Origin: Pedobacter sp. FW305-3-2-15-E-R2A2
Lineage (GTDB): Bacteria > Bacteroidota > Bacteroidia > Sphingobacteriales > Sphingobacteriaceae
NCBI RefSeq assembly: GCF_038446955.1
Contig: NZ_CP151803.1
Location: forward strand, 3,286,001 to 3,350,000
Length of the DNA stretch: 64,000 nt
Direction: 5' to 3'
Part shown: positions 3,288-50,411 of the stretch, piece after piece
How the letters are laid out: every line of letters starts with the position of its first letter
Numbering within the stretch: position 1 is the first letter of the stretch
Program-made: the position numbers and the translations under genes
Notes under the pieces: model-generated
Seen by the model: only the letters and a program-made list of their open reading frames with translations
What the model was told of the DNA's origin: nothing
The model's database searches: none

Positions 3288-4247
3288 CTATGGCAGCGGT
3301 TTATTCAGGACGTACTTTTCATACATATACTCGGTCATGGGTAATAATCTTTTACGGTTGTCTGCTGGGTTTTCACCACTGGTAGTATAAAACTCCACTT
3401 TATTGTTCAGCTTTGAATAGTGAACTTTTCCTATGTCATCCCGGCTTATAGTAGCCCAATTTGTGATTCTTTTTAAGTGTTCCAAACTGTATTTATTTAA
3501 AGGAACAATGATTTCACCTTCTACCTCCTGATCGCAGGCTACCGATTCATAATGATCATTATCCCAATACATACATCTATACTTGCTGATATCGTAGAAA
3601 ATATAAGAGCCAGCCAATGTGATGAATGCAGCCAGAAATGCAAAAATGGTTTTGTTGAATTTACGTGGAATGCCAAATTTGCTATCGTTGACTTTCCCTA
3701 TATCGTATAATGGCGTTGTAGTGGGCTTCTGAAATTTTTCTTCTATAATTTCCGGCTCAATTGGTTTATCGATGGTTTCTGTTTCGTTTGGTTCCCGGGT
3801 TTCTGTTTCTTCCCGATGATCATTAGCTATTTCCCGCACCGAATCTTTCTTCGCAGTTGGTGAATCCCATTCTGATTTCACCAGATCATAAATATCACCA
3901 GGCTTATAAGGCCTCGGTTCAAAATCTATAAACCAGGCTAAGAGTTCGATGCTGATATTTTTAGGTGCCTTAATTTCTCCTTTTAGAAAGTTGTACAAAG
4001 GTTTGAATTTATCAGCACCCACTGCTTTAATTCTCTTTGCATATTCTTCTGCACTATCTCTTTCACCGAATAACGACTTAAAGGTTTCGCTATCCTTGTC
4101 GGAGTACCGGTTGTGAAAAACATTCAGGCATTCCGCTTTCAGATTTGCCGTCGTATAACTCTCCAACTTAGGGGGTAATGTTCCTTCTTTTTTTTTCTTT
4201 TCATAAGCAAGAATCACCTCCTGTTTATAATCTTCAAACCTTTTCAA
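3288..4247 (-). CDS. Uncharacterised single-pass membrane protein, CMYWxxDHYESxxC family (copy 1)
   Basis: 319 aa. Residues 1-115 are a soluble helical region ending ELLAWFIDFEPRPY. Residues 135-172 are a charged Glu/Thr-rich linker, 200-219 a single transmembrane helix, and 225-319 an extracytoplasmic domain opening with CMYWDNDHYESVAC (Cys225 to Cys238, likely a disulfide) and ending with RKRLLPMTEYMYEKY. A paralogue with the same layout lies at 46067-47035. I recall similar uncharacterised proteins as common in Flavobacteriia and Sphingobacteriia, but I know of no function. The N-in topology suggests a cytoplasmic module linked to a small envelope domain. It is a single-gene unit whose 5' region carries the GGAATTTTC repeats. 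Confidence 0.8.
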   Translation of the reverse strand: MKRFEDYKQEVILAYEKKKKEGTLPPKLESYTTANLKAECLNVFHNRYSDKDSETFKSLFGERDSAEEYAKRIKAVGADKFKPLYNFLKGEIKAPKNISIELLAWFIDFEPRPYKPGDIYDLVKSEWDSPTAKKDSVREIANDHREETETREPNETETIDKPIEPEIIEEKFQKPTTTPLYDIGKVNDSKFGIPRKFNKTIFAFLAAFITLAGSYIFYDISKYRCMYWDNDHYESVACDQEVEGEIIVPLNKYSLEHLKRITNWATISRDDIGKVHYSKLNNKVEFYTTSGENPADNRKRLLPMTEYMYEKYVLNKPLP

Positions 4248-4860: not shown

Positions 4861-6549
4861 TTGGATAAAATTAAGCGCTTGAAACCTCTCTGTCTCCTCT
4901 CATTTCTTCTGATGTTTTTTTATTCCTGTACTGATCGGATCAGGGAAGAAAAACCAAAAGATAATCTATACTACGACCTGGCATTTGAATTTCGGGACAA
5001 TAAAAAAATACCTGATAGTGCCTTTTTTTATTTTAATAAGGCTAAAGAAGTGTTTTTTCAGCAAAATGATAGCCTGGGTGTGGGAAGGTGTTTAGTGAAC
5101 ATGGGAATTATTTCAACAAACAGGGGTGATTATTTTGGGGCACAGGAAATTTCATTGAACGCAATTTCCCATTTTGACAAAAAGAAAGAAGATCAATCCT
5201 ACTACATTCATTCCAACTATAACAATCTTGGAATAGCAACCCATAATCTGGGAAATTATAAGGACGCATTAAAGTTTTATGACGCAGCAATCGAATCTTG
5301 CAAAGATTCCGTGGACATCCGTCTTTACCTGAATAATAAAGGTAAAACTTATCAGATGATTCCCGATTATAAAGAAGCACTGAAAATATACCATCAGATT
5401 TTAAAGGGAGTTAGTAAAAATAAGAAGGAATACGCCAGGGCATTAACTAATATTTCGCTGACCAAATGGCTGCAGGATTCTACCTACAATGCTGCTCCGG
5501 ATTTTTTAAAAGCATTACATATTCGTGAAGAAGAAAATGACTTTTGGGGGCAAAATTCCAGCTATTCACACCTTTCCGATTTTTATGCTAAAAAACAAGT
5601 CGACTCTGCATTGATTTATGCGCATAAGATGTACGCTGCAGCAACAAAAATAAATAGTGCTGATGATAAATTGGCTGCAATTCGGAAATTGATTAAACTT
5701 AGTCCACCTAAAGTCGCGAAAGCGTATTTTCAAACCTATCAAAATCTAAATGATAGCTTGCAGATTGCTCGTAATTTAGCCAAAAATCAGTTTGCACTGA
5801 TTCGGTATGAAACGGAGAAGCACAAAACAGATTTTTTAAATGCCCAGGCTGAAAACATTCAGAAAAGGAACAATATACTCGTGCAGAATTTTATCCTGGT
5901 CATCCTGGCATTAGGCCTGGTATCGGGATATTTGTGGTATAGAAGAAGAAAGAAGATGCTATTGCAGGAAAAGGAGCTGGAAGTCAAGAAAACAGAACTT
6001 AAGTACGTGAAAAAAATTCATGATCGGGTGGCAAATAAAGTCTATCATGTGATGTCTGAAGTAGAAAACAGCCCGGAAATGGACAGAGACATTTTACTGG
6101 ACAAACTGGAAATCCTTTATAATATCTCAAGAGACATCTCTTACGAAAGTAAAGAGCTGGATACGGCAAAGGATTATGCCGGACAACTTTCGGAAATGTT
6201 GCAATCCTATTCATCTGAATTTACTGAAGTTTTGATTGTCGGAAATGAGGAAGAGCTATGGGAATGTATAGACAATGCCGGAAAGGCGGAACTTTTTTAT
6301 ATCCTGCAAGAGTTGATGACAAACATGAGTAAGCACAGTAAAGCAGAAACTGTGATCTTAAAGTTTCAACGGAATGACCTTGATATAAATATCTTATACT
6401 CGGATGATGGCATTGGGATGAAAGATGTTCAGAAGAAAAATGGTTTGACAAATACGGAAAACCGTATTAAAAGTATTCGGGGTACCATTACTTTTGATCA
6501 TACACTCAAAAAAGGACTTGGAATTAATCTTTCCTTCCCTTTTTCCTAA
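4861..6549 (+). CDS. TPR-containing sensor histidine kinase (lipoprotein-like N-terminus)
   Basis: 562 aa if it starts at TTG 4861. The next in-frame ATG (4912) would remove most of the signal, so TTG is preferred. The N-terminus has a hydrophobic stretch ending FFYSC, a lipobox. Residues about 35-330 are TPR repeats (NNLGIATHNLGNYKDALKFYDAAI and relatives), about 342-360 a transmembrane helix, then a HisKA_3-like helix with IHDRV (His386) and a GHKL ATPase with the N box ELMTNMSKHSKA, DDGIGM and GLTNTENRI. This is the NarL/LuxR-class kinase layout common in Bacteroidota. The cognate response regulator starts 12 bases later. The stimulus is unknown. Confidence 0.9.
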   Translation: MDKIKRLKPLCLLSFLLMFFYSCTDRIREEKPKDNLYYDLAFEFRDNKKIPDSAFFYFNKAKEVFFQQNDSLGVGRCLVNMGIISTNRGDYFGAQEISLNAISHFDKKKEDQSYYIHSNYNNLGIATHNLGNYKDALKFYDAAIESCKDSVDIRLYLNNKGKTYQMIPDYKEALKIYHQILKGVSKNKKEYARALTNISLTKWLQDSTYNAAPDFLKALHIREEENDFWGQNSSYSHLSDFYAKKQVDSALIYAHKMYAAATKINSADDKLAAIRKLIKLSPPKVAKAYFQTYQNLNDSLQIARNLAKNQFALIRYETEKHKTDFLNAQAENIQKRNNILVQNFILVILALGLVSGYLWYRRRKKMLLQEKELEVKKTELKYVKKIHDRVANKVYHVMSEVENSPEMDRDILLDKLEILYNISRDISYESKELDTAKDYAGQLSEMLQSYSSEFTEVLIVGNEEELWECIDNAGKAELFYILQELMTNMSKHSKAETVILKFQRNDLDINILYSDDGIGMKDVQKKNGLTNTENRIKSIRGTITFDHTLKKGLGINLSFPFS

Positions 6550-6561
6550 AAGATATAGATA

Positions 6562-7227
6562 ATGTTCAAAAAAGTACTCATAGCGGAAGACCACGAACAC
6601 ACTAACATTTCTGTGCGTAAAACTTTGAAAGATCTTGGAATCACTCAGACGGAGTTTAGATATTATTGCGACGATGCACTAAAACTAATAGAAGTAGCCG
6701 TTAATCAGGAACAGCCTTTCGATTTATTGATTACCGATCTTTCTTTTGAAGAAGACAAAAATATCCAGGTCATCAATGATGGTCGGGCACTGATTAAAGC
6801 AGCAAGACATTTGCAGCCCGATTTAAAAGTAATCGTTTTCTCTCTTGAAAATAACGTCACAGTGGTTGATGAACTGTTTGATGGTTTGGACATTGATGCT
6901 TATGTGCGTAAAGCCAGATATGATGCAGATGACCTTAAACGAGCTATAGATGCGGTTTCTAACCATAAAAAATATCGCTCTGCAGATTTGATGAGAAATA
7001 AAAGAATAGAGAAATCCTATGATTTTAAAGCTTTTGATATTGAGATTATCACCCTATTGTGTAATGGAACACCTCAAAAAAATATTCCATCTTACCTGCA
7101 GGAAAACAATATTAAACCATCTGGTTTAAGTAGTGTGGAAAAGCGGCTCTCTTTTATAAAGACGGCATTGAGTATTTCCAGTAATGAGCAACTGGTTGCT
7201 TATTGTAAAGACAAGAAGATTATTTAA
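6562..7227 (+). CDS. Response regulator, REC plus LuxR-like HTH
   Basis: 221 aa. The receiver domain occupies residues 1-130, with the acidic pair Glu9-Asp10 and the phosphoacceptor Asp59 in LLITDLS. The switch Ser is in VIVFSLENN and the Lys in YVRKARYD. The C-terminal 70 residues are a divergent LuxR-type helix-turn-helix with IITLLCNGTPQKNIPSYL and a second helix SVEKRLSFIKTAL, the form usually seen beside TPR kinases in this phylum. It is 12 bases downstream of the kinase and therefore its partner. Two small genes follow on the same strand within 23 bases and could be part of the same transcript. Confidence 0.9.
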   Translation: MFKKVLIAEDHEHTNISVRKTLKDLGITQTEFRYYCDDALKLIEVAVNQEQPFDLLITDLSFEEDKNIQVINDGRALIKAARHLQPDLKVIVFSLENNVTVVDELFDGLDIDAYVRKARYDADDLKRAIDAVSNHKKYRSADLMRNKRIEKSYDFKAFDIEIITLLCNGTPQKNIPSYLQENNIKPSGLSSVEKRLSFIKTALSISSNEQLVAYCKDKKII

Positions 7228-7249: not shown

Positions 7250-7486
7250 ATGAATACAATTCTATTCTTGGGAAGCATTTTTCTCTATACCATCACGTCC
7301 ATCCCGACTAAAGAGGTATATATTTGCAATAACAAAAAAGCGGACAAGTATCATTATTCATCAACTTGCAGAGGTCTAAGTAATTGCCAGTATAAAGTTT
7401 CAAAAACAACACTTGTCCTGGCAGAAAAGAAAGGAATGACACTATGCTCCTGGGAGAACAAGACAAGAAAAAAGAAGGTAAAATAG
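7250..7486 (+). CDS. Small exported four-cysteine protein, uncharacterised
   Basis: 78 aa. Residues 1-17 form a hydrophobic signal-like segment. The mature part reads VYICNN...YHYSSTCRGLSNCQYKV...GMTLCSWE. I recall CRGLxxC followed by a Lys/Val strand and a final CGWE- or CSWE-like motif in other small hypothetical proteins of Bacteroidota, but know of no function. The four cysteines could make two disulfides in the periplasm. It lies 22 bases after the response regulator, so it may be co-transcribed with it. The tail is very basic (KTRKKKVK). Confidence 0.7.
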   Translation: MNTILFLGSIFLYTITSIPTKEVYICNNKKADKYHYSSTCRGLSNCQYKVSKTTLVLAEKKGMTLCSWENKTRKKKVK

Positions 7487-18653: not shown

Positions 18654-19117
18654 CGTTGCTTTTTTTGAGTGTGCTGCCAGTATTTTCGGGCGGCAAACAA
18701 CATGCCGAAGGATTCACCATCGTGTCTGTCCAGGTGTTTATGGTGCATTTTATGTGCCCTTTTGATCGTTTTTATATACGTATTGTTGCTTCTTGAAAAC
18801 CATTTGAATCTTTGGTGGATGACCACATCATGTATGATGAAATAGGCAATACCGTAGAGTAAGATTCCCAGACCAACGTAAAACATCCAATTGAATCCTG
18901 CTTCCGCGCCAAAAAAGAAAAGAAGAATGCTAGGGGCGGCGAATATCAGAAAGAAAAAATCATTTTTTTCAAAGAAATGAGGCTTCTTCTGGTGGTGATC
19001 TTTATGTAATACCCATAACAGCCCATGCATTACAAATTTATGCGTAAACCATGCTACACCTTCCATAAAGATAAAAGTACCTGTTGTAATCAGTAAATAG
19101 ATCATTCCGTTAGTCAT
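18650..19117 (-). CDS. crtZ: Beta-carotene hydroxylase
   Basis: 155 aa, integral membrane di-iron hydroxylase. The four histidine clusters are visible: HKFVMH, HKDHH, HDVVIHQR and HKMHHKH, separated by hydrophobic helices. It adds 3-hydroxyls to beta-carotene, giving zeaxanthin. It overlaps idi upstream by 8 bases and crtY downstream by 4, so it is translationally coupled to both. No ketolase (CrtW) gene lies in this window, so zeaxanthin is the predicted end product of the locus as seen here. Confidence 0.95.
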   Translation of the reverse strand: MTNGMIYLLITTGTFIFMEGVAWFTHKFVMHGLLWVLHKDHHQKKPHFFEKNDFFFLIFAAPSILLFFFGAEAGFNWMFYVGLGILLYGIAYFIIHDVVIHQRFKWFSRSNNTYIKTIKRAHKMHHKHLDRHDGESFGMLFAARKYWQHTQKKQR

Positions 19118-19637
19118 TGCTCTTTTTATAATGCAGCATTACTTCTGTAAAACATATTTTTAACCATGCGGTATATTTTTCATCCTCATGGATGAGGCTG
19201 GATTGCAGTTTTTCCATGTCGACATAGTTGAAGGATGCTACTTCATCCGGGTTAGGTTGAGGTTGAGCATCTGATGTGCCAAAATAAACATGATCATATT
19301 CATTTTCTGTCAGGCCGTTTTCAAATTCAGCCTGGTAGGAAAAGCTAAAAACAGGATGTATTTCGCATTCCATACCCATTTCTTCTTTTAATCGTCTTTT
19401 CGCGGCATGGATGGTCTCTTCGCCAGGTCGGGGATGACTACAGCAGGTATTGGTCCATTTTCCTGCGGAATGATACTTCCCCAGAGCCCGTTGCTGCAAT
19501 AAAAGTGCTCCCGACTGGTTGAAAATAAAAACGGAGAAAGCACGGTGAAGTTTACCTTCAATATGTGCCTGTAGTTTAGGCATCGTTCCAATTGGCCGAT
19601 CGTAGTGGTCTACCAGTATTACTTCTTCTTCCATCAT
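19110..19637 (-). CDS. idi: Isopentenyl-diphosphate delta-isomerase, type I
   Basis: 175 aa Nudix-fold protein. Family residues are visible: HRAFSVFIFN, KWTNTCCSHPRPGE (active-site Cys), AAKRRLKEEMGM (Nudix-like Glu cluster) and ENEYDHVYFG (Glu and metal-binding Glu/His). It interconverts IPP and DMAPP and so supplies the prenyl starter for phytoene. Placing idi inside a crt operon is common in Bacteroidota. It overlaps both the upstream unknown gene (4 bases) and crtZ (8 bases). Confidence 0.96.
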   Translation of the reverse strand: MMEEEVILVDHYDRPIGTMPKLQAHIEGKLHRAFSVFIFNQSGALLLQQRALGKYHSAGKWTNTCCSHPRPGEETIHAAKRRLKEEMGMECEIHPVFSFSYQAEFENGLTENEYDHVYFGTSDAQPQPNPDEVASFNYVDMEKLQSSLIHEDEKYTAWLKICFTEVMLHYKKSND

Positions 19638-20137
19638 GTATTTAATCCTTTCTTTTCGTCAGCAGAACAATAGTTCGAAGTTGACAAATATTTTAATATG
19701 CTTTCCTTCAATTTTTTATCTTTTATTGTTTTCAGGTTGCTTAATAAAAACTGTTTGTCCCTTGCGATATCGTCATTATAATTGAGGAATGAAGGGAGGT
19801 TAGTCTGAATAGCAAACCTCAAAAATCGTATTTCTATGTTATGAGATTCTTTCTTTACTGCTGCTTCGATCAGCGCTTTTCCTTTTTTGAACCTCCTGAA
19901 TTTGTGGATTGGGTTAATTCCATACCTGCAGCGCATCATCTCAGCAGCTCCTTTATAGCAGATCAAAAGTGGAGGAGAGGAAGGTCCGGTGACAGACAAT
20001 ATTTTCAAAAGCCGGTCGGAGGAATCCTTGCTGTGCACTGCCGCTTCGAACAAACGCTTCACTTCCCGCAGTTCGGGTTCTGCGGAATAGGTTTTCGTTG
20101 CAAAAAGTAACAGGAAGAAAAAGGTTGCAGCTTTCAT
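19634..20137 (-). CDS. Uncharacterised exported protein inside the carotenoid operon
   Basis: 167 aa with a signal peptide (residues 1-18, cleavage near YSA-EP). The mature protein is helical. Recognisable stretches are PPLLICYKGAAEMMRC, FKKGKALIEAAVK and NIEIRFLRFAIQTNLPSFLNYN, followed by DIARDKQFLLSNL. It overlaps crtB and idi by 4 bases on either side, so it must be made together with the pathway enzymes. I recall similar proteins in crt clusters of related genera but no assigned function. An envelope role such as pigment placement or assembly is possible but unproven. Confidence 0.8.
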   Translation of the reverse strand: MKAATFFFLLLFATKTYSAEPELREVKRLFEAAVHSKDSSDRLLKILSVTGPSSPPLLICYKGAAEMMRCRYGINPIHKFRRFKKGKALIEAAVKKESHNIEIRFLRFAIQTNLPSFLNYNDDIARDKQFLLSNLKTIKDKKLKESILKYLSTSNYCSADEKKGLNT

Positions 20138-20970
20138 ATGGTATTTGTTTTGTAGCGGATGATAGAGTCAAACATCAATCCGAATTTATGAGCATTTGAA
20201 ATCCGGATCCTTTGGGTCATCACTTTCTCAGCCGTGCTGTTTTTGATCTTATTGAACAACTTTTTGTAATACACATAAGCTAGATAGACTCCGTTTTTAG
20301 AGGATGGAGGTAGTTCCCGGATGCCAATCAGTGCCAGTTTAAATTCGCTCTCAATTTCTTCTTCTATCTGTTTTTTTTCAATGTTGGTGAATTTGGAAAG
20401 GTTCACATTTGGAAAATAGGTCCGGTTGAGCATATAATAATCGGCGTTGACATCTCTCAGGAAATTCACCTTCTGAAATGCAGAGCCCAGTTTCATTGCC
20501 GAATCTTTCAGCTTTTCGTACTGTATTTTATCTCCTTCAGTAAAGACCTGCAGACACATTAAACCTACGACCTGAGCAGAACCCAGGATATATTGGTCGT
20601 ATTTTTCAGGAGTATAAAGTTCTTGTTTAAGGTCCATTTCCATACTTTGAAGAAACAACTCAATCAATTCTTTGTCGATCTGATATTTGTTTACCACTTC
20701 CTGAAAGGAATTGAGTATCGGATTCAGGCTGATTCCCTCTTCGATGGCCTCATAGCAATCTCTTTTAAACTTCGCGAGCAAAGTAATTTTGTTATAGTCA
20801 TGGAAGCTGTCTACGATTTCGTCTGCCAGTCGTACGAAGCCGTATATGGCGTAGATGGGCTGACGGAGTCTTTCGTTTAAAAAATAAATACCTAATGAAA
20901 AGCTGGTGCTATAACGTTTGGTAATCATTTCGCTGCATGCTGCTGATAATTTATCAAAGATCTCTTTCAT
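20134..20970 (-). CDS. crtB: Phytoene synthase
   Basis: 278 aa trans-isoprenyl diphosphate synthase of the squalene/phytoene type. The first Asp-rich motif is in YGFVRLADEIVDSFHD, preceded by the SFSLGIYFLNERLR start block. The second region is GSAFQKVNFLRDVNADY with the DxxxD-like RDVNAD. It joins two geranylgeranyl diphosphates to phytoene at the membrane surface. It is 2 bases downstream of crtI and overlaps the following unknown gene by 4 bases. Confidence 0.95.
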   Translation of the reverse strand: MKEIFDKLSAACSEMITKRYSTSFSLGIYFLNERLRQPIYAIYGFVRLADEIVDSFHDYNKITLLAKFKRDCYEAIEEGISLNPILNSFQEVVNKYQIDKELIELFLQSMEMDLKQELYTPEKYDQYILGSAQVVGLMCLQVFTEGDKIQYEKLKDSAMKLGSAFQKVNFLRDVNADYYMLNRTYFPNVNLSKFTNIEKKQIEEEIESEFKLALIGIRELPPSSKNGVYLAYVYYKKLFNKIKNSTAEKVMTQRIRISNAHKFGLMFDSIIRYKTNTI

Positions 20971-40572: not shown

Positions 40573-41154
40573 TTGTTAGCTTTGGGGAAAATTGATCAAG
40601 TGCCTCCACCTATTTCAAATCAGGATCAACACCTTCACCTTACCGTCCATGACATGGATGAGCTGGGTTTTGAACAAACTTACCGGAATTGCTGGAAAAG
40701 TGTGTTTGGCATTATCTTTCATTATACCCAGGATGAGGAAATTGCGGAGGAGATTAGTCAGGATCTGTTTGCATCCCTTTGGGAGCGTAGAAAGAAAATC
40801 GTCATTAGAACTACCGTTGAGCAATATTTGAACCGGGCAGCCAAACTGGAGGCTTTCGATTATCTGCGTACCAGCAGTAGTCGCCGTGAACACATCAATT
40901 GTGCGTTACAAAACTTATGCGATTCCAGGAATTGTACTGAAGAGCAGGTGTTGTTTAATGAACTGAACGGCAACCTGAATTCGCTCTTGGACGAATTGCC
41001 ATGCCGCTGCCGCGAAGTATACGGATTGAGTCAGGAGCAGGGTATGAACAATAAAGCGATTGCTTCCAGATTGATGATCTCGGAAAAAACTGTGGAGTAT
41101 CACTTGTATAAAGCACTTAGTTTTTTGAGAATTAATCTACAGGAATACAGATAG
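40573..41154 (+). CDS. ECF sigma factor, FecI-like
   Basis: 193 aa if started at TTG 40573. GTG 40600 is an alternative, and the first ATG (40654) would begin inside region 2, so it is disfavoured. Region 2 is FEQTYRNCWKSVFGIIFHYTQDEEIAEEISQDLFASLWERR. Region 4 is ELPCRCREVYGLSQEQGMNNKAIASRLMISEKTVEYHLYKALSFLR. It is followed after 97 bases by FecR and the receptor gene, making it the cell-surface-signalling sigma factor of this unit. Its own promoter target is probably upstream of the receptor gene. Confidence 0.9.
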   Translation: MLALGKIDQVPPPISNQDQHLHLTVHDMDELGFEQTYRNCWKSVFGIIFHYTQDEEIAEEISQDLFASLWERRKKIVIRTTVEQYLNRAAKLEAFDYLRTSSSRREHINCALQNLCDSRNCTEEQVLFNELNGNLNSLLDELPCRCREVYGLSQEQGMNNKAIASRLMISEKTVEYHLYKALSFLRINLQEYR

Positions 41155-41251
41155 TTGTAGAATAATCTCATTTTTTGTGAAAACCGACCTAGGAGAAATC
41201 CCGGGTTATCCGGCTTAAAGGTATATGGGCACATAGGGGAGCCCGGTACTT

Positions 41252-42217
41252 ATGAAGATTACTAAAGAAATTATTGAGCGTTATCATCAGGGAAGATGTA
41301 GCCTGGAGGAGCAGCGTATTGTTGAACAATGGCTGGATGCTGAAGACGTGGAAATGAGTTTTCCTGAAAATGCTGATATCAATACCATTGGGGATAGAGG
41401 CTGGAAGCGAATTTCTTCCCGTTACCACATCGATGTGCAACCTGATCCCGTCGCCGCTGGTTTCAAATCCCGTAATTATCGAATGTTCTGGCAGCTTGCG
41501 GCCTGTATAACCTTGATCTTTGGTGCCGCGACTTTCTATTATTTAAGCAATGGACATCAGGATAGCCGTTTGGTTTATAAAGAGATCAAAACGCAAAAAG
41601 GGCAGAAGCTGAGTGTAAGTCTGGCCGACGGGACCGTTGTTTGGTTAAATTCGGAAAGTGTTTTACGCTTTCCGGAAAATTTTAAAGGTCGTTCAAGGGA
41701 ATTGGAATTTAGTGGTGAAGCCTATTTCAGCGTCGCTAAAGATGCCTCGAAGCCATTTATCATTCGTACAGAAAAAACAAAAATACAGGTACTGGGCACG
41801 AAGTTTAACTTAAGGGCGATGGCAACCGAAACTGCGACAACGGTAGTCGTTGAGGAAGGTAAAATCCAGTTTTCCGGAACGCCGGATCAACAGCAATTGA
41901 TTTTAACGGCTAATAAAAGAGGTGTTTTTGAAACAAAAAGCACGATGCCATCCATGCAAACAGATGAGGTGTACGCAGGCAAATATATGGCCTGGAAAAA
42001 TGGAGAGTTGTTAATGGACAATTTAACCATTGAAGAGGCTGCCAGGACCCTCGAGCGTTGGTACAACGTAAAAATCAACATTAGCAGGGAAGACCTGCTT
42101 AAAGAACGCTATACCGGTAGTTTTAAAAATCCTGCATTGAAACAGGTGCTGAAGAGTCTTGCGTTTGCGGTGAAATGTAGTTACAAGCAAAACGGACAGA
42201 CATTTACACTCTATTGA
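41252..42217 (+). CDS. FecR-type anti-sigma factor
   Basis: 321 aa. The N-terminal cytoplasmic segment (EIIERYHQGRCSLEEQRIVEQWLD) contacts the sigma factor. A single membrane helix spans about 78-98. The periplasmic FecR domain has IKTQKGQKLSVSLADGTVVWLNSESVLRFPENF, SRELEFSGEAYFSVAKDASKPFIIRT and VLGTKFNLRA. The C-terminal DUF4974 part has WKNGELLMDNLTIEEAARTLERWYNVKI. It relays the state of the TonB receptor to the sigma factor. Full length and canonical for Bacteroidota. Confidence 0.95.
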   Translation: MKITKEIIERYHQGRCSLEEQRIVEQWLDAEDVEMSFPENADINTIGDRGWKRISSRYHIDVQPDPVAAGFKSRNYRMFWQLAACITLIFGAATFYYLSNGHQDSRLVYKEIKTQKGQKLSVSLADGTVVWLNSESVLRFPENFKGRSRELEFSGEAYFSVAKDASKPFIIRTEKTKIQVLGTKFNLRAMATETATTVVVEEGKIQFSGTPDQQQLILTANKRGVFETKSTMPSMQTDEVYAGKYMAWKNGELLMDNLTIEEAARTLERWYNVKINISREDLLKERYTGSFKNPALKQVLKSLAFAVKCSYKQNGQTFTLY

Positions 42218-42320
42218 TCATCTCCAACCAATTATAAAAAGAAACCCGGTTTCGGTCTGCAAACTTCATACCGGGCTATCGAAAAATCAATTCATCATTA
42301 ATTTAACAACAAACAAAAGT

Positions 42321-45020
42321 ATGTACAAAAGATGTACCCGAAGGAAACAATTCTTGAAATTTCTGTTTTTTATTTGCAGTATTTTATACCTGCCCTACAG
42401 CAGTTACGGGCAGCAAAACCAGCTATTAGAAAAGACGTTGAGCCTACAGTTGAAGAATGTAACGCTGGGAGATGCATTAAAGGCGCTTGGAGATCAAACA
42501 GGTGTACAGTTTTCCTATAGTAGTACGCAGTTAAATACACAACGAAGAGTGAATGTGGATATCAGGCAGCAATCACTAAAAGATGCACTATCCGATTTGT
42601 TGGGGCAGGAGCTTAAAGGTCTTAGCCTGAGCGGGACACAGGTAACGATTCAGACTTCCGGAGGCAAAGGCAGCGTTAAAGGAACGGTTAAAACGAGCGA
42701 CGGAAAAGCAGCTGAGTTTGTTACGGTAGGCATTAAGGGCTTAAAAAGCGCCCAGGTAGATGCTAAAGGAAATTACTTGCTGAAAGATCTTGAAGCTGGT
42801 AAATATACCTTGATTGCCAGTTTTGTTGGTTTGGGCGTTCAGCAAAAAGAAGTAACCGTACTTGCGGGACAAACAATTTCTCAGAATTTTGTGCTGGTAG
42901 AAAGCAATGACCAATTGGAAGAAGTGGTGATTAACGGTGGGAGCACCAATAAGTTCTCTGTAAAAAAAACCACTACTTCTGCGAAGATGCCATTGGGTAA
43001 CCTCGAAAACCCGCAGGTGTATACCACCATTCCAAAGACGCTGCTAACAGAGCAAATGGTGACAGAGTTCAGTATGGCCCTGAAAAATAGTCCGGGCGTA
43101 TATAAGGTTCAAGGCTCCAGAGGGATCAATAGTGAAGGTGCTTCCTATTACAGTATGCGTGGCTTCAGATCAGAGGCGGCATTAATGGATGGTGTTCCTG
43201 CACAAACTAATGGGGAAGTTGAACCCGCAAACATTGAACGTGTAGAGCTGATCAAGGGACCTTCCGGCACCTTGTTTGGAGGAGCAGTGGTCTCTTTCGG
43301 TGGCTTGATTAATATTGTCACTAAAAAGCCAGTGGATACACTGGGTGGAGAAGTAAGCTTTACTACAGGTAGTTATGGCTTGAGACGCCTTAGTGCAGAC
43401 GTCTACGGGCCTGCAGATCCGGTAGATAAAGATAAAAAATTGCTGTTCAGGATGAATGCGGCTTACCAGAACCAACAGTCATTTCAGGATGCCGGTTTCA
43501 GAAAGTCGATATTTTTTGCCCCCTCGCTGGAATACCGTGCAAGCAAAAGACTAAACATCAGTGTGAATGCGGGCTTTTATCAGCTGGAAGGAACAAGCCC
43601 TTCCGTGATCTTTTTGAACAGAACACGTAATTATATAGCGAAAGCGCCATCCGAACTGAATTTTAACTGGAACAGATCTTATACCAATAATGACCTGACC
43701 ATGAAAAACCCGACCCTGAATTTTAGGTCACAGATAACTTATAAACTTTCCGATCAATGGACTTCACAGACCATTTATTCGATTAATAGCCGTAAGTCTG
43801 ATGGCTTTTACCAATACCAGTTTATACGTACGGCAAAAGACAATATGATGGAGCGGACGCTCTCAAAGCAATACTCTGTGAATACATCCAGAGATTTACA
43901 ACAGAATTTTACGGGCGATTTTAACTTGTTTGGTTTGCGTAACAGAATGGTGGTTGGTTTCGATTACCTGAACCAGACGGTTCGTAACAACAGTTCACCT
44001 TATATTGTGTTTGACAGCGTAGACGGGACGAATCCTGCAGATGCAAATTATGCGAAGATCAACCGCGCCGCAGTAGAAGCCGGACTGACGAAAAGTAAGG
44101 ATCCCCGCACCTGGAACTATGGCGAAAATAACATTTATGGTGCTTATGCTTCCAATGTGCTGAACCTGACTGACCGGTTAATGGCGATGTTGAGCTTAAG
44201 GGTAGACCGCTTCCAGAACAAAGGCGTTTTTAACCGCAATACCAATCTGCATACGGGTCAGTATATGCAAACTGCGATCTCTCCAAAGTTCGGCTTGGTT
44301 TACCAGGTACTGAAAGACAGGATTTTGTTATTTGGAAATTATATGAATGGCTTTAGTAATGTGGCCCCGGTAACACAACCAGAAGGTTCAGGCGCTTCCT
44401 CAACTTTCAAACCACAGCAATCCAATCAGTTTGAGGGAGGTGCGAAAATGGATCTGTTCCAGGGTAAATTAAGTTTTACTGCCAGCGTATACGATATTGA
44501 AGTGAACAACATGACCTGGAGAGAGGACATTAGCGTGAATGGTAAAAATTATCCGGTTACCTTACAGGGAGGTACTCAGAAAAGTAAAGGAATAGAACTC
44601 GAGCTGATTGCGAATCCATTTGAAGGTTTGAACGTCATTGCGGGTTATGCGTACAACGACAGCAAGCTGATTGAAGGAACCCCTGCGCTTGAAGGAAGAC
44701 GCCCGGCTTTTGCAGGGCCCTCAACCCTGATCAATTCCTGGATCAGTTATGCCATTCCACGTGGGGACCTGAAAGGCATTGGCCTCGGTGCCGGAGTAAA
44801 TTATATTGGCAAACATGTAACGGGGAATTCGGCAATCACCGGTGTATTCACTTTGCCTTCTTATGTGATGGCAACCGCAACTGTGTTTTATGATAAACCA
44901 AAATACAGATTGGGCTTTAAAGTTGACAATTTAACAGACGAACTATATTTTACAGGAATAGGGGTGTTGAGCCCACAAATGCCAAGAACTTTCGCCGCAA
45001 ATGCCACTTTCAAATTTTAA
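42321..45020 (+). CDS. TonB-dependent siderophore-type receptor with STN signalling domain
   Basis: 899 aa. Signal peptide to about residue 31, STN domain about 40-110 (LQLKNVTLGDALKALGDQTGVQFSYS), a carboxypeptidase-regulatory-like domain about 118-200 (GSVKGTVKTSDGKAAEFVTV...), the plug with EEVVINGG and SMRGFRSEAALMDGVPAQTNGEVEPANIERVELIKGPSGTLFG, then the barrel ending PRTFAANATFKF. The single-domain plug and FGGAVVSFGGLINIVTKKP resemble ferric-siderophore receptors rather than SusC. The STN domain signals to FecR encoded upstream. It overlaps the PepSY gene by 20 bases, so iron release from a siderophore is the likely purpose of the unit. Confidence 0.94.
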   Translation: MYKRCTRRKQFLKFLFFICSILYLPYSSYGQQNQLLEKTLSLQLKNVTLGDALKALGDQTGVQFSYSSTQLNTQRRVNVDIRQQSLKDALSDLLGQELKGLSLSGTQVTIQTSGGKGSVKGTVKTSDGKAAEFVTVGIKGLKSAQVDAKGNYLLKDLEAGKYTLIASFVGLGVQQKEVTVLAGQTISQNFVLVESNDQLEEVVINGGSTNKFSVKKTTTSAKMPLGNLENPQVYTTIPKTLLTEQMVTEFSMALKNSPGVYKVQGSRGINSEGASYYSMRGFRSEAALMDGVPAQTNGEVEPANIERVELIKGPSGTLFGGAVVSFGGLINIVTKKPVDTLGGEVSFTTGSYGLRRLSADVYGPADPVDKDKKLLFRMNAAYQNQQSFQDAGFRKSIFFAPSLEYRASKRLNISVNAGFYQLEGTSPSVIFLNRTRNYIAKAPSELNFNWNRSYTNNDLTMKNPTLNFRSQITYKLSDQWTSQTIYSINSRKSDGFYQYQFIRTAKDNMMERTLSKQYSVNTSRDLQQNFTGDFNLFGLRNRMVVGFDYLNQTVRNNSSPYIVFDSVDGTNPADANYAKINRAAVEAGLTKSKDPRTWNYGENNIYGAYASNVLNLTDRLMAMLSLRVDRFQNKGVFNRNTNLHTGQYMQTAISPKFGLVYQVLKDRILLFGNYMNGFSNVAPVTQPEGSGASSTFKPQQSNQFEGGAKMDLFQGKLSFTASVYDIEVNNMTWREDISVNGKNYPVTLQGGTQKSKGIELELIANPFEGLNVIAGYAYNDSKLIEGTPALEGRRPAFAGPSTLINSWISYAIPRGDLKGIGLGAGVNYIGKHVTGNSAITGVFTLPSYVMATATVFYDKPKYRLGFKVDNLTDELYFTGIGVLSPQMPRTFAANATFKF

Positions 45021-46104
45021 GAAAACCACACACTTTTTACACCTCTGGCTCGGATTGTTTTCCGGGCTGGTGGTGTTTATACTCGGACTTACCGGTGCCA
45101 TCTACGCCTTCAGCGATGAAATCAAAGAATGGGTGTATCAAGACAGGTTATATGTGGAGGCTCCGGCAGGTGCTGCAAGATTGCCATTAAGCAAGTTGTT
45201 ACCAATAGCGGAACAGGCAATGGGTAAAGACCGCAAAATTTCACGTGGGGAGCTTTCGCAGGCTAAGGGCCGTACGTATATGTTTCGGGCGATGAAGCTC
45301 AACAGGAAGGCCTTTGGTTATTGGAATTATTACGAGTATTATCATAAGGTTTATCTGAATCCTTATACCGGACAAGTGGTATTTAAGGAAAATGCCAAAA
45401 GGGAGTTTTTTACCGTGGTACTCGCCTTGCACATGAACCTGTTGATGGGCGATAATGTTGGGCATTTCATTATACGCTGGTCGGTGGTTTGTTTTGTTGT
45501 TTTATTGCTGTCGGGTATGGTGTTGTGGTGGCCAAAGAAATGGAAACGGAAGCAGTTGAAGAAGAATTTTAAGGTGAAATGGGATGCGAAGTTCAAACGC
45601 CTGAACTACGATTTACACAATGTATTTGGCTTTTATAGTCTTTTGGTTTTATTGATCATTGCATTGACGGGATTAATGTGGTCCTTTGAACTGACGACAG
45701 AGAAGAAGTCAAAGGTCTTGTCTGATACCACAAAGATAGTCGACATGATGCCGGCAGACCTGATTTTGAATCAGGCACTGAAAGCATCTCCGAAAACGGC
45801 TTATTTCCTGTATAATTTTCCCGTTGCAAAAAGCGGAACGGTAAATGTTTCCGCCTACCAAAGCGACATGAATCTATACGATCGGGTACAGTACCGCTTT
45901 GATCGCTACAGTGGCAAGTTGCTGCAAAAAGGGCTGGAGTTTAACAAGCAGGCGATAGGAGCACAGCTCATTTCGATGAATTATGATCTTCATACAGGCA
46001 GTGCCTTGGGACTGACAGGGAAAATATTGGCTTTCTTTGCAGGACTGATTGCTATGGGATTACCGGTTACCGGTTTTCTGATTTGGTGGAAAAGGGAGAA
46101 GTAG
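45001..46104 (+). CDS. PepSY-associated TM protein, siderophore-reductase-like
   Basis: 367 aa. Four membrane helices: FLHLWLGLFSGLVVFILGLTGAIYAF, IIRWSVVCFVVLLLSGMVLWWPK, LNYDLHNVFGFYSLLVLLIIALTGLMWSFE and LTGKILAFFAGLIAMGLPVTGFLIWW. Conserved histidines (HLWLG, HMNLLMG, DLHNVFG, DLHTGSALG) fit haem- or metal-binding in the PepSY_TM family. Members beside siderophore receptors reduce or help release ferric iron in the periplasm. It starts inside the receptor gene (20-base overlap), and its end overlaps by 38 bases the convergent membrane protein gene. Confidence 0.9.
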   Translation: MPLSNFKKTTHFLHLWLGLFSGLVVFILGLTGAIYAFSDEIKEWVYQDRLYVEAPAGAARLPLSKLLPIAEQAMGKDRKISRGELSQAKGRTYMFRAMKLNRKAFGYWNYYEYYHKVYLNPYTGQVVFKENAKREFFTVVLALHMNLLMGDNVGHFIIRWSVVCFVVLLLSGMVLWWPKKWKRKQLKKNFKVKWDAKFKRLNYDLHNVFGFYSLLVLLIIALTGLMWSFELTTEKKSKVLSDTTKIVDMMPADLILNQALKASPKTAYFLYNFPVAKSGTVNVSAYQSDMNLYDRVQYRFDRYSGKLLQKGLEFNKQAIGAQLISMNYDLHTGSALGLTGKILAFFAGLIAMGLPVTGFLIWWKREK

Positions 46105-47035
46105 CAACCAGGCCAGCATTTTTGGATTGGTTAAAATCAGCATTTTCCCTTTTGCGTTTTTTCCAGAAAGCGATTAACGAAATGGTACACAAGGCGATGA
46201 AAATGACCAGGCAAATTGACCAAAGCAAAAGCGTTAGCAAGTACCTGTAATAGGAGATGTATTTAAATAATATATATGCTGATAGTGGCCTTAGCTTTCT
46301 AACAGTATCTATAGGGTGGCTTCCACTATCTGTAAAATACTCCCGGTAATTACCTGTTCTGACGTACCAGACTTTTCCCAATGAATTTTTAGTGAGTGTA
46401 TCAGGTAAAGTGATTTTTTTAAAATAGTTTAATTTTCGAATATTTAAAGGAATGACAGGTGCGTCAGTGATCTTTTCATTGCAGTCGATGGACTCATAGT
46501 GATCGTCTTTCCAGTACATACATTTTTGGGTTGAAACTAAGCCATTAAACATACTGGGTGTTTTATCTTTCCAGAAGAAAAAAGTGCCCGCCACAAGAAC
46601 AAGACCAATACTTACAATGATGGCGTTACGTATTGGTGGCTTGGGGGGCATTGGTGGCTTTGGTATATCAGGTGGGGCGGACTGGCTGATATATTTTGTA
46701 AAAGGTCTTTGATTGAAATCTACTAACCAAGCTAAAAGCTCTATATACTTCCGATTAGGGCTACTGATGTCTCCTTTGAGAATTTTTGGCATTTGTTTAT
46801 ATTGAACTGCCTTGGAATTTTCAATATTTCTGGCAAATCCGATCTCTTTATCTGCAGCACCAAAGAACAATCTTAATGCTTCATCGTCATTACTGAGCGG
46901 CCTTTCCCTAAAAACAGTAATACATTCATTTCTAAAATCTCCAGGTGTTGGATTCGATAAATTTTGAGAAAGCGTCTTATCAGTTCTCTTCTTTTCGCAG
47001 TCAGCAAGAATGGCTTTTAAATAATCCTCAAACAT
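46067..47035 (-). CDS. Uncharacterised membrane protein, CMYWxxDHYESxxC family (copy 2)
   Basis: 322 aa paralogue of the protein at 3288-4247. The N-terminal helical domain (residues 1-112) has the same GECxxVFRER / LFFGAADK / KILKGDISSP / ELLAWLVDFNQRPF pattern. A Pro-rich linker follows, then a membrane helix at about 138-155 and the envelope domain with CMYWKDDHYESIDC (Cys172 to Cys185) and PLN...GKVWYVRTGNYREYFTDSGSHPIDTVRKLRPLSAYI. Unlike copy 1 it has a second membrane helix (about 265-291) and a 30-residue basic tail. The tail is encoded in the overlap with the PepSY gene and may be an extension by stop-codon loss. Confidence 0.8.
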   Translation of the reverse strand: MFEDYLKAILADCEKKRTDKTLSQNLSNPTPGDFRNECITVFRERPLSNDDEALRLFFGAADKEIGFARNIENSKAVQYKQMPKILKGDISSPNRKYIELLAWLVDFNQRPFTKYISQSAPPDIPKPPMPPKPPIRNAIIVSIGLVLVAGTFFFWKDKTPSMFNGLVSTQKCMYWKDDHYESIDCNEKITDAPVIPLNIRKLNYFKKITLPDTLTKNSLGKVWYVRTGNYREYFTDSGSHPIDTVRKLRPLSAYILFKYISYYRYLLTLLLWSICLVIFIALCTISLIAFWKKRKRENADFNQSKNAGLVATSPFSTKSENR

Positions 47036-47229
47036 TTTTGGAAAGCATTAATTGACGAAAATAGAAGAGGTTTTTAAAACTCCTGAAGCATCGTCTGGAT
47101 TTCATATGTGGTGTGTAGTTGTTGATTTTCAAAATTATTTCAAAAATTGCTCATGGCTTTACGGTTTCCCGTAAGTAAAGAGATTTGAACATCTATACTT
47201 TTGACAAGCTCAACAAAAAAAATATAAAG

Positions 47230-47457
47230 ATGACCTGGAGTTTTCATAAGCGAATAAAAATCATCCCGGTAGTTCATTTGAACTTAAGCAAAGGTGGTAT
47301 GTCAACCGCTGTAGGGATAAAAAGGGCAAGCATGCCTCAGCCTCAAATTTATAATCAAGATCGACTGGCAACGGTTTCGGGACTATCAGTCTACCGAAGA
47401 ATTTGGGCTTGCATTCAGAGACTATCAGGCAAGAATTATACGATTGAAATAGCTTAA
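47230..47457 (+). CDS. DUF4236 protein, degenerate
   Basis: 75 aa from ATG 47230. A TTG at 47185 is in frame but would add non-family residues. The start MTWSFHKRIKIIPVVHLNLSKGGMSTAVGIKRAS matches DUF4236 (RFRKRIKIxPGVxLNxSKSGxSTSxGxxGA). The expected glycine-rich continuation and the PGTGxxY motif are replaced by a poorly matching stretch (MPQPQIYNQDRLATVSGLSVYRR). It may be decayed or diverged. It is 12 bases upstream of the PLD-fold gene, and probably in the same operon. Confidence 0.65.
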   Translation: MTWSFHKRIKIIPVVHLNLSKGGMSTAVGIKRASMPQPQIYNQDRLATVSGLSVYRRIWACIQRLSGKNYTIEIA

Positions 47458-47469
47458 AACTTAAATATT

Positions 47470-49467
47470 ATGCTTACAGAAAACGCTCAACTTGATCAAC
47501 AGGTATTGCACAATAATAAAGAGATTTTTTCTCGTATCGTCGAAGAGCTCGAAGGAGCTGAATTCGAGATTTTAATTGCTACTGCCTGGTTTACTGATGA
47601 TGAGTTATTTGACATCATCAAACGTAAGGCCATCCAGAATATAAATATATCGCTGATTATAGCAGACAATCAGGAGAATCTTAAACTGGATTTCGACGAA
47701 CTTGCTTTGTTGGGCGTTTCGGTAACCAGGATAAAAAACGTCGGATATGGGATGATGAATCAGAAGTTTTGCGTAATTGACAAGCGGGTTGCACTTCATG
47801 GTTCCTACAACTGGTCAGTAAATGCAAGGAAAAATAATCATGAAAGCATTATTGTAACCAATCACGCAGAAACGGTAGCGAATTTAATTACCAACTTTAA
47901 CGACATCAACCAGAAAGCCTCGATGCCTCGGGCTGAAACAGTTGTACCCAGCCCCCCTGAACTTTCCACTGTCGAATTAAAAATCGAAAATCACAGCGCT
48001 AAAGAACATGCCATTTTGGAATTTACCAAGGTACTCGATTCTATGATAGCTGCTGAAATTGGTAACTTTGACCGTAAAATGCTGAGGGGGCAGGGGTATG
48101 AGCGTTCCAGATTTAATAATGGGGATCACCAGGTACTCACCAAGTCTCTTGATACGGTTTATTCTGTTTTCATTAATGACATCGATGTGGTTGATGATAA
48201 GAAGAGACGTTTAATTACAAAGATTGATGAGCAGGAAGTGAAGAGCATTAATACCTTCGAGGAAAACCTGAATTTACAATTACAGACGGCTGAAGCAGCA
48301 TCTGAAAACGAAACTTTAAATGCAAAAAATACCCTCATCAGCCTAAGGTCAGAGAGCGAAAAAAATAAACAGGAAATTCAGGGCCTTAAAACAGATAAAA
48401 TCACCTTTCATGAAAAAGAGGTGGCAGGGATTAAAGAGCGCATACGCGATGCACAGCGGAATTTCATTGCACCAAAATTTAAATGGTATGAGTTTATTCC
48501 GGTAGTTTTTGCCAATATAAGTCTGGTCACTTATCTTTTTATTTTTTATTCTTCTGCATGTTATATTCTATTATTTGCTGTTGAGGATTCAAAGGCAGCT
48601 AAAGCCGCTGGGCTGGATAGTATTCCGATGGAGATATTCAATCCCAAAGCATTAAGTTTAACTTTCTCAAAGGGAGTAGCAGGGGTGATTTTTATTTTGC
48701 TGTTTGTGAGTATTCCAATCTTTTGCGCGTTGATTAAACTGTTTACCAAGAAACAGTGGATTGCTGTTCTGATGTTTATCGTTGGAATTGGTTTTATTGA
48801 CGTTGCAATAGCCTATAAAGTTTCAGCTGCCATTTATGAAACTAAATTCGATGGCGGATATGAAAATGAAAAATGGCAAATGACCATGGCATTCGGCGAT
48901 CCAAATTTTTACCTGGTATTTCTATTGGGTGCTTCCGGTTTAATCATGCTAAAATTCGCTTTTGAAAAATTGATATCAATCTTCGAAGAGCGCAATCCTG
49001 ATATCGCCACCTTAAAAAATAGCCTGCTCATTAAACAGATGGATGAGGATGTGAAATTGCAGGAAGAAAAAATTCTTCTGATTAAAGCGAATGTTTATTC
49101 AATAGAAGCCATAAATATAGGTCTGGATGCGCAGTATAAAATAACTGAAGCCAGGCTGGAAGCCATACCCAACAAATTAAATCTGTTGAGAGAGATTAAA
49201 AAAACAGACCTGATTACTGGAAAACAACACATCAGAGATATTTCTACCATTTACAAAAGCCATGTGGAGAATGATCACCTTCCAATCTCCATCGATTCGC
49301 TTAACGACAGGATCAATATCTTCTTAGAGGGTTGGAATGATTACCTGCATGAGGAATATGCCGTATTAAAAGCAATCGAAAAATCGCGTGAGGCATTTGA
49401 TACAGCTGTACGTTGGCAAAATGAAAAGATAAGTAGTACACAAATAGATAAAAGGATAAAAATCTGA
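47470..49467 (+). CDS. PLD-fold (HxK-like, degenerate) protein fused to coiled coils and four TM helices
   Basis: 665 aa. Residues 10-135 form one phospholipase-D-type half domain. The catalytic block reads MNQKFCVID...GSYNWSVNARKNNHE: Lys99, Asp104, Gly111-Ser112, Asn114 and Glu125 are kept, but the catalytic His is Asn97. Residues about 165-340 are helical/coiled coil. Four membrane helices lie at about 342-500 (including LTFSKGVAGVIFILLFVSIPIFCALI and FYLVFLLGASGLIMLKFAF), then a cytoplasmic coiled coil to 665. The stop overlaps the next ATG (ATGA-type), so the VWA-like protein is coupled. A membrane-tethered single-HKD protein with the His lost suggests binding rather than cutting. Function unknown. 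Confidence 0.7.
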   Translation: MLTENAQLDQQVLHNNKEIFSRIVEELEGAEFEILIATAWFTDDELFDIIKRKAIQNINISLIIADNQENLKLDFDELALLGVSVTRIKNVGYGMMNQKFCVIDKRVALHGSYNWSVNARKNNHESIIVTNHAETVANLITNFNDINQKASMPRAETVVPSPPELSTVELKIENHSAKEHAILEFTKVLDSMIAAEIGNFDRKMLRGQGYERSRFNNGDHQVLTKSLDTVYSVFINDIDVVDDKKRRLITKIDEQEVKSINTFEENLNLQLQTAEAASENETLNAKNTLISLRSESEKNKQEIQGLKTDKITFHEKEVAGIKERIRDAQRNFIAPKFKWYEFIPVVFANISLVTYLFIFYSSACYILLFAVEDSKAAKAAGLDSIPMEIFNPKALSLTFSKGVAGVIFILLFVSIPIFCALIKLFTKKQWIAVLMFIVGIGFIDVAIAYKVSAAIYETKFDGGYENEKWQMTMAFGDPNFYLVFLLGASGLIMLKFAFEKLISIFEERNPDIATLKNSLLIKQMDEDVKLQEEKILLIKANVYSIEAINIGLDAQYKITEARLEAIPNKLNLLREIKKTDLITGKQHIRDISTIYKSHVENDHLPISIDSLNDRINIFLEGWNDYLHEEYAVLKAIEKSREAFDTAVRWQNEKISSTQIDKRIKI

Positions 49468-50411
49468 TGAGAAAATATATTTTAATAGGCCTCCTGGCGT
49501 TGCTGTCTGCAACGAAGTTGTCTGCCCAGAAACCAAATGAAATCACTCATTTTAACCTGATTTTTGCACCGGATTTATCGAACCGTTTAAATCCGAAACT
49601 ATATCCAAAAGCTGTTAATGATGCAGATATCGTTCAGGGGGCAATGGGGAAAATATGGCCGGATATCTTACGGATCGGGAGAGATGAGGGGCAACTGGAT
49701 CGGTATAGCGTTGATTTCATCAACAAAGGACTAATAGGTTTGTATAAAATCAATACCGACATATTGGTGATTGATTTTCAGTTATTTAAGAGACAGAGTG
49801 ACAGGATCAATTATATTTTAGCCAGAAACAGTGTACCACGTACTTTGAAGCAGGATGTGTCTGTGTTTATGGCTGAGTATCAGAAGTTTAATAATAAAGC
49901 CGCAATCTCCAATAATGGAGCGGATATCTGGACCTATTTTCAATCCGGTATTGACGACCGGATCGTGTTACCAGCCCTGTCAACCGGCGGTAGGCTGAAG
50001 CATAAATTCCGAAATGTAATGGTTTTAATGACCGATGGCTATATCGAGGCAGGTATCTATGGTAAGGGATATGATTTGAGTGCAGCAAAAGTGAAGGATT
50101 TTAGAAATGCATTTTTGAAATCGAATATAGACGACATGAATGTTTTCTTATCTAGAAATCCCAAATTCAAGATTAAGCCCGCTAAAAATCCCTTTCTGAA
50201 AGACCTGGAAGTGATTGTGTTGGAAATGTATGACCGCTCGCTCTCTAGAGCAGGTGCTGCTACCAGGCATCCTACAGACATGGAAATTATGAAATTAATC
50301 TGGACTGATTGGATGAGAAGTTCCGGGGTAAAAAGATTTGAACTTAAATCTACAGCCAGCAACAAATCCGAGGCCGTTAAATATATTATCGACTTCTTGA
50401 AAAAGCCATAA
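49467..50411 (+). CDS. Exported VWA-like protein, uncharacterised
   Basis: 314 aa with a signal peptide (residues 1-20, cleavage at LSA-QK). HFNLIFAPDLSNRLNPKLYPK resembles a MIDAS-type first loop (DxS), and NVMVLMTDGYIEAGIYGKGYDLS supplies a TDG loop, so a von Willebrand A-like fold is likely, though the third MIDAS Ser is Arg. Also visible are GADIWTYFQSGID and LEVIVLEMYDRSLSRAGAATRHPTDMEIMKLIWTDWM. I recall similar uncharacterised proteins in other Bacteroidota. It starts within the stop of the PLD-fold gene, so the two products probably act together across the inner membrane. Confidence 0.7.
   Translation: MRKYILIGLLALLSATKLSAQKPNEITHFNLIFAPDLSNRLNPKLYPKAVNDADIVQGAMGKIWPDILRIGRDEGQLDRYSVDFINKGLIGLYKINTDILVIDFQLFKRQSDRINYILARNSVPRTLKQDVSVFMAEYQKFNNKAAISNNGADIWTYFQSGIDDRIVLPALSTGGRLKHKFRNVMVLMTDGYIEAGIYGKGYDLSAAKVKDFRNAFLKSNIDDMNVFLSRNPKFKIKPAKNPFLKDLEVIVLEMYDRSLSRAGAATRHPTDMEIMKLIWTDWMRSSGVKRFELKSTASNKSEAVKYIIDFLKKP

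Follow-up and report, generated by a model that had tools for sequence, protein, structure and literature searches.

A conserved membrane-VWA gene pair behind a palindromic promoter in Pedobacter, a candidate envelope module of a Ter-like stress regulon

Results

We analysed a stretch of 64,000 nucleotides (hereafter the window) from the 7.59-Mb, single-contig genome of Pedobacter sp. FW305-3-2-15-E-R2A2 (G000), centring on two adjoining genes that encode a 665-residue membrane protein with a phospholipase D (PLD) fold and a 314-residue exported protein with a von Willebrand factor A (VWA) fold (Table 1). A first-pass annotation had placed here three forward-strand open reading frames (ORFs), with a 12-base gap between the first two and an ATGA-type overlap between the last two. 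The three ORFs (47230-47457, 47470-49467 and 49467-50411) and the gap are indeed present and the last two genes do overlap, but by a single base within TGATG, A49467 being common to both. What had been described as a three-gene cassette retains two of its genes, those for the 665- and 314-residue proteins, whereas the third (DUF4236) is a decayed remnant, and the unit takes in, on its upstream side, a predicted palindromic promoter that faces both ways and the divergent gene of a membrane protein (46067-47035). Gene starts and small genes are approximate throughout, as called by a simple longest-ORF script.

Pfam searches with the three ORF products returned DUF4236 for the first (33 of 55 positions), PLDc_2 for the second (residues 23-145, E 6e-16) and nothing for the third. 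In the AlphaFold2 model of the 665-residue protein (predicted local distance difference test score, pLDDT, 79.6; alignment of 38 sequences) the PLD domain is followed by a 110-residue helix (220-330), the membrane helices and a long coil, and model and hydropathy together place the membrane helices within residues 339-379, 403-420, 429-461 and 478-508. Pfam, AlphaFold and hydropathy agree with the order first proposed for this protein: PLD half-domain, coiled coil, four membrane helices, coiled coil. The four-helix part has no Pfam name. The PLD fold best matches NucT (PDB 6ehi; Z 20.1, root-mean-square deviation (rmsd) 2.3, 144 residues aligned), with FAM83B (Z 19.2), Nuc (Z 19.1) and Zucchini also close, and a viral fold library searched with the whole protein was uninformative, yielding nothing beyond PLD domains and unspecific SMC-like coiled-coil matches, at very high rmsd. 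The single-HKD PLD nucleases NucT and Nuc and their FAM83/DUF1669 relatives have the same fold as residues 7-152; unlike the nucleases, the window protein joins this domain to coiled coils and a set of four membrane helices, and in its family the catalytic position is occupied by His in some lineages and by Asn in others. Because a KKQW loop lies between helices 2 and 3, the positive-inside rule suggests that the PLD domain and both coils are cytoplasmic, and residues 380-402 and 462-477 would then form periplasmic loops.

The PLD motif of the window protein reads MNQKF...D...GSYN...E, with Asn at the catalytic His position and hence NxK in place of a complete HxK...D motif. The domain had been called degenerate, which describes the Asn of the window protein correctly but finds no support for the domain in general, several members carrying His (L049, L051, L052-L055, L126, L128, L129). 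Among the close orthologues MHQKF occurs in 2 of 11 (L049 and L051) and MNQKF in the rest, and both states are found in wider relatives. On a membrane-core tree built without the PLD columns, His and Asn changed at least four to five times, a count that cannot separate gain from loss, and the forms lacking a PLD domain make up one clade. The nucleophile exchange is recurrent, and Asn alone does not make the window protein unusual. As the catalytic His is repeatedly swapped for Asn, the main role of the PLD fold is probably to bind or to scaffold. The case that relatives would all be known housekeeping proteins with an intact His elsewhere had been named as speaking against the proposal; intact His was found, but at the same position, and no relative is a known housekeeping protein. 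Within L122-L133 and L042-L055 there are at least four His/Asn switches, with Lys, Asp, GSxN and Glu retained, as in a repeated alternation between putatively active and inactive forms.

The 314-residue protein has a signal peptide, recognised from its sequence, and its model (pLDDT 84.4) matches VWA/I domains at Z about 11, bearing out its description as an exported protein with VWA-like DxS and TDG loops (here DLSxR and TDGY). Since D36, S38, R40, G151, D153, T189, D190 and G191 are invariant over 37 sequences, a non-canonical site resembling the metal ion-dependent adhesion site (MIDAS) is likely. In distant members a lipobox-like Cys follows the signal peptide, again from sequence. Models and fold matches agree with the predicted layout of a PLD domain inside the cell, a membrane part and an exported VWA protein.

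Close orthologues of the 665-residue protein are present in 11 of 145 genomes of the genus and the VWA gene adjoins in all 11; its named relatives all come from Pedobacter, the nearest from P. steynii (90% identity), and both P. steynii DSM 19110 and P. cryoconitis have the pair. Profile searches detected VWA relatives at the level of the order in 77 of 400 genomes and at that of the phylum in 23 of 395. In every one of the 73 loci that were read and have the VWA gene (the window, L042-L081, L119-L133 and L188-L207), spanning nine families of the phylum, the gene for the four-helix core lies directly upstream of it on the same strand, separated by -77 to +32 bases and in one case by 122 (starts being approximate). 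The homologues thus stay adjacent, which the first-pass annotation had named as a check, and the outcome that it had set against its proposal, that they are rarely adjacent, did not occur. Simple Nei-Gojobori counts against the orthologous locus of genome G134, a 90%-identical relative, gave ratios of nonsynonymous to synonymous substitution of about 0.10 for the 665-residue and about 0.14 for the 314-residue protein, and both genes are under purifying selection. Judged by gene order, membrane core and exported VWA protein form an obligate pair.

In loci lacking the PLD domain, a TerB-like gene directly precedes the membrane gene in 23 of 46 and a DUF6804 gene in 15 of 46, and no TerB gene was seen on the maps of PLD-fused loci. 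Matches to PF05099 were obtained for 19 of 22 TerB-like members (best E 2.9e-7), the member shown in full lying below the gathering score. Because the PLD-less forms make up a single clade, the replacement between PLD and TerB-like or DUF6804 proteins is one evolutionary exchange, not many.

DUF4236, counted before as a working gene, is ruled out as such by a broken frame and an internal deletion: tblastn with long relatives against window 47150-47475 places their first 35 residues in the frame of the ORF and their last 24-25 residues in another, so that only about 35 codons are kept. The protein is full length (370-456 residues) in most relatives that have one, and in G134 only about 150 bases, with no DUF4236 match, separate the palindrome from the PLD gene. 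Found in only 19 of 73 loci, DUF4236 accompanies the operon now and then, and in the window it has decayed.

Table 1. Features of the gene pair, its promoter and the regulator island (window coordinates)
Feature	Coordinates	Strand	Evidence
665-residue PLD - coiled coil - four membrane helices - coiled coil protein	47470..49467	+	ORF, Pfam, AlphaFold
PLD domain of NucT/Nuc-like single-HKD type (residues 7-152) with Asn in place of the catalytic His	47488..47925	+	structure match
Membrane core of four helices (residues 339-508), conserved throughout the relatives	48484..48993	+	alignment, model, hydropathy
314-residue exported VWA-fold protein, DLSxR and TDGY loops	49467..50411	+	fold match, alignment
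Perfect palindrome TTACGGTTTCCCGTAA, predicted regulator site for both directions	47159..47174	.	single copy in window
-7 box TACTTTTG (TAnnTTTG), 21 nt downstream of palindrome; predicted promoter of the pair	47196..47203	+	offset counts
Second -7 box TAATTTTG, 21 nt on the palindrome's other side; predicted promoter of divergent gene	47130..47137	-	conserved in G134
Divergent 322-residue membrane-protein gene, 'w6' family, likely regulon member	46067..47035	-	family in 50/73 loci
DUF4236 remnant, decayed; N-terminal 35 residues in frame	47230..47457	+	PF14020 E 2.4e-10, 33/55 positions; tblastn with long relatives
Out-of-frame C-terminal tail of a ~370-residue DUF4236 relative, FRDYQSTEEFGLAFRDYQARIIRLK	47375..47449	+	tblastn
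TPR-containing histidine kinase, sensor family of the island, 40 kb from the pair	4912..6549	+	locus reading
RcsB/LuxR-like response regulator, predicted palindrome binder	6562..7227	+	profile A3 vs RcsB
78-residue exported Cys/His protein of the island, 'KYH' family	7250..7486	+	locus reading
Second divergent w6-family gene, beside kinase/regulator pair	3288..4247	-	locus reading

The 16-bp palindrome upstream of the pair is of the type TTACGG-N4-CCGTAA, has no other copy in the 64 kb at up to one mismatch (0.08 expected) and is found again in most loci of the family. The boxes beside it conform to TAnnTTTG, the -7 consensus of Bacteroidota (PMC7366714), and in the window as in G134 they lie 21 nucleotides (nt) away on both sides, which suggests that the palindrome also serves the divergent gene. 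Around 107 palindromes a -7 box occurred at offset 21 in 91 cases and in at most three at any other offset, and a search of the 145 Pedobacter genomes that allowed spacings of 21-28 found 178 promoter sites, nearly all listed ones with spacing 21, against 1 for a reversed control pattern. The w6 protein has no Pfam or PADLOC family; genes of this family have a palindrome promoter of their own in L120, L121, L125, L127, L131, L133 and L164.

Some related elements were also noted. Two or three successive copies of the palindrome promoter stand before one gene group in L133 (5722 and 5911) and L198 (about 4528, 5076 and 5850). A near-palindrome at window 6452 (two mismatches), exactly 21 nt from TACTTTTG and before the regulator gene, falls within the kinase gene, in its conserved end, and was left out of the counts. 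Between the second divergent w6 gene and the kinase gene (window 4260-4330) there is a run of CGGAATttTCGGAATC near-repeats, possibly a second regulator site, and CGGAAT stretches similar to this run accompany the AATC-type palindromes of L127, L131 and L133.

The island at the other end of the window encodes a kinase and a regulator whose profile (A3) matches RcsB over residues 4-192 (189 residues, E 5e-11); this match covers receiver and C-terminal DNA-binding domain, Response_reg itself being below the Pfam cut-off. Within the genus, 91 genomes have both regulator and motif, 12 the regulator only, 7 the motif only and 35 neither, so that the motif is present in 91 of 103 genomes with the regulator versus 7 of 42 without it (p 1e-16, relatedness ignored). 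In a class sample of 295 genomes, 9 have both, 2 the regulator only and none the motif only, the positives falling in three families (9 of 11 versus 0 of 284; p 1e-15, relatedness likewise ignored). We infer that the RcsB-like regulator binds the palindrome. G000 has two regulator copies, one of them in the window. The second (L114 8071-9922; G000:C1 about 4.206 Mb) has as neighbours a KYH gene and a gene for an exported endonuclease/exonuclease/phosphatase-like protein; a palindrome with one mismatch stands between them, and no island-type kinase gene was called there. Small exported proteins of 69-80 residues with a KYHxxxCRGLxNC motif are encoded in 46 of 73 loci, often before SNase (window 7250-7486; L149 6193-6405).

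The first genes behind the shared promoter vary (HSDR_N, DUF6232, DUF4236, DUF4177, the PLD gene or an exported VWA-like protein), and in other genomes the kinase/regulator island itself stands behind a promoter of this type. The G000 site at 4,701,667 starts an operon in the order KYH, HSDR_N, an exported 514-residue protein with VWA-like motifs by sequence reading, a 112-residue membrane protein, a tubulin-like protein, proteins of 1302 and 433 residues, two TerD proteins and OmpA; relatives of the TerD pair were matched at E 1e-58 and 2e-45 and of OmpA at E 4e-17. The tubulin-like protein found no match among PDB sequences, and an Hsp70/actin identity considered for the ~1300-residue protein was dropped, as neither Pfam nor PDB sequences gave a match. 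In L047, L066, L068, L071-L073 and L080 the TerD/tubulin-like operon is convergent with the island and adjacent to it. HSDR_N occurs in 46 and SNase in 35 of the 73 loci. Our literature search found no paper describing the regulon or the motif.

The window copy of the pair is flanked by ordinary metabolic and uptake genes, and PADLOC found nothing convincing among ten flanking proteins, only two weak regulator-domain matches, leaving the proposed defence-island location without support. Applied to the proteins of the pair and to w6, PADLOC gave a weak DrmC (PLD) match on the PLD fold (E 7e-7) and none for the VWA or w6 proteins.

Discussion

Ter systems, as described in PMC7824862, combine TerB/TerD sensors and membrane parts with VWA structures beneath the membrane that stop phages or xenobiotics, and the components summarised there from Anantharaman, Iyer and Aravind (2012) include TerB, TerC, TerD, TerF-VWA and TelA; resistance to phages, colicins and metals is influenced by ter genes (PMC12054061). 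The pair resembles these systems in that a VWA protein is tied to a membrane component with a proposed role in membrane or invader stress, a putative TerB-like protein directly precedes the membrane gene in the sister clade, and two TerD genes, albeit not in the cassette itself, lie in the same genome in an operon with the same promoter type. It differs in that the VWA protein is exported, unlike the cytoplasmic TerF/TerY; the membrane protein belongs to a four-helix coiled-coil family, with PLD in place of TerB in the window; the TerD genes form a separate operon with a tubulin-like protein; and control would be exerted by a TPR kinase/RcsB-like pair through the palindrome. The GTPase-centric conflict systems with GAP1-N2 (tubulin, HSP70, extracellular vWA; Kaur et al. 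2020, PMC7159879) likewise join a tubulin-family protein to a VWA domain outside the membrane and to membrane proteins, but are found in actinobacteria and firmicutes, whereas the present regulon belongs to Bacteroidota and has TerD and two-component control instead. In L149, L187 and L151-L167 we recognised neither a TRAFAC GTPase nor a GAP1 protein, no profile search having been made for them. The regulator aligns with RcsB of the Rcs phosphorelay over 189 residues, but unlike RcsB its partner is a TPR histidine kinase, and its predicted site, palindromic and 16 bp long, lies 21 nt from a -7 box of the Bacteroidota type. With its exported VWA protein, four-helix partner, exchangeable PLD/TerB module and promoter, the cassette, judged from these comparisons, differs from both the Ter and the GAP1-N2 systems.

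Given the TerD proteins, the TerB-like protein at the membrane gene, the VWA partner and the stress-type two-component system, we consider it reasonably probable that the two genes encode the envelope part of a Ter-like stress regulon that is found in Bacteroidota and is under two-component control. The role in envelope stress or defence suggested at the outset is favoured by the promoter common to the cassette, the TerD/tubulin-like operon and the two-component system, although the defence-island part of that suggestion found no support. Several observations weigh against the regulon as we describe it. Outside the class (L199, L201, L203, L204) the membrane-VWA pair occurs on its own, with neither regulator nor Ter genes nor motif; the pair can thus presumably work without the regulon, which would be either a later addition to an older pair or lost outside the class. 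TerC, TelA, PRTase and HAD genes were not recognised in the loci read, no genome-wide search having been aimed at them. In the genus, the regulator occurs without an exact motif in 12 genomes and the motif occurs without the regulator in 7, and the co-occurrence tests disregard relatedness. The tubulin-like label comes from one relative (Pfam Tubulin_2, E 3e-7), the G000 protein being below the cut-off, and the ATPase-like label of the 1302-residue protein from motif reading alone. Finally, the VWA protein departs from the canonical MIDAS pattern DxSxS...T...D: DxSxR and TDG are invariant, and the first loop ends in Arg rather than Ser.

The resemblance of the regulator to RcsB, the OmpA-family protein, the exported small proteins and the two exported VWA-like proteins of the regulon, together with the lack of defence genes beside the window copy, would also suit an Rcs-like envelope-stress module without anti-invader role, in which the VWA protein monitors the state of cell wall or outer membrane and the coiled-coil membrane protein is a scaffold. 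We regard this as a minority possibility, though one deserving serious weight. Against it, nuclease-type parts (HSDR_N, SNase, the NucT-like PLD) recur in the regulon and ter genes have been linked with phage and colicin resistance (PMC12054061). The same nuclease-type parts could instead point to a system dedicated to defence against phages or plasmids, with the PLD domain at the membrane and the HSDR_N/SNase nucleases attacking incoming DNA; the complete HKD motif on a NucT/Nuc fold in several members, the frequency of HSDR_N (46 of 73) and SNase (35 of 73) and the weak DrmC match speak for it, yet Asn often takes the place of the catalytic His, one entire clade is without a PLD domain, and the window offers neither a defence-island context nor a PADLOC family for the VWA protein, so that we judge it unlikely.

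That the shared promoter reflects mere common ancestry of one scattered island, whose genes no longer act together, fits the distances between the pieces in G000 (window 4.9 kb, window 47 kb, 4.2 Mb and 4.7 Mb). It is hard to reconcile with a motif that keeps its exact spacing at dispersed sites before different first genes and that tracks the regulator across genomes, where neutral decay would erase it, and we think it quite improbable.

Under the Ter-like stress regulon that we favour, the TPR kinase would sense a cue and the RcsB-like regulator would bind the palindrome, about where a -33 element would sit, activating all such promoters together. The VWA protein may bind a metal-dependent ligand in the periplasm, and the four-helix protein may relay this signal to the cytoplasmic coiled coils, which would carry an exchangeable nucleic-acid or ligand module, NucT-like PLD here and a TerB-like or DUF6804 protein elsewhere. 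By analogy with what is proposed for Ter systems, the outcome could be that the envelope is reinforced or that an invader, phage or DNA, is stopped at the membrane. In its most specific and rather doubtful form, the proposal is a trans-envelope alarm of Bacteroidota in which the exported VWA receptor and its obligate four-helix coiled-coil partner would pass a signal from outside to the exchangeable cytoplasmic module (pseudo-nuclease PLD or TerB) and set off the assembly of a tubulin-like/TerD structure beneath the membrane, all under one kinase/regulator and a dedicated palindromic promoter. Ter proteins are widespread, but little is understood of what triggers them and of their partners in the membrane. 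The specific promoter, candidate regulator and obligate membrane-VWA pair described here make it possible to turn the response on and track it with standard genetic methods. Moreover, with His and Asn repeatedly exchanged in a NucT-like domain tethered to the membrane, nature provides an experiment on the conditions under which a nuclease turns into a binding protein.

Other genes of the window were read in passing. Next to the cassette, ECF (extracytoplasmic function) sigma-like, FecR-like, TonB-receptor and PepSY-type genes (40654-46104) read as an ordinary metal-uptake locus, and 17496-20970 holds carotenoid-cluster-like genes (lycopene-cyclase-like, hydroxylase-like and isopentenyl-diphosphate-isomerase-like), by sequence alone.

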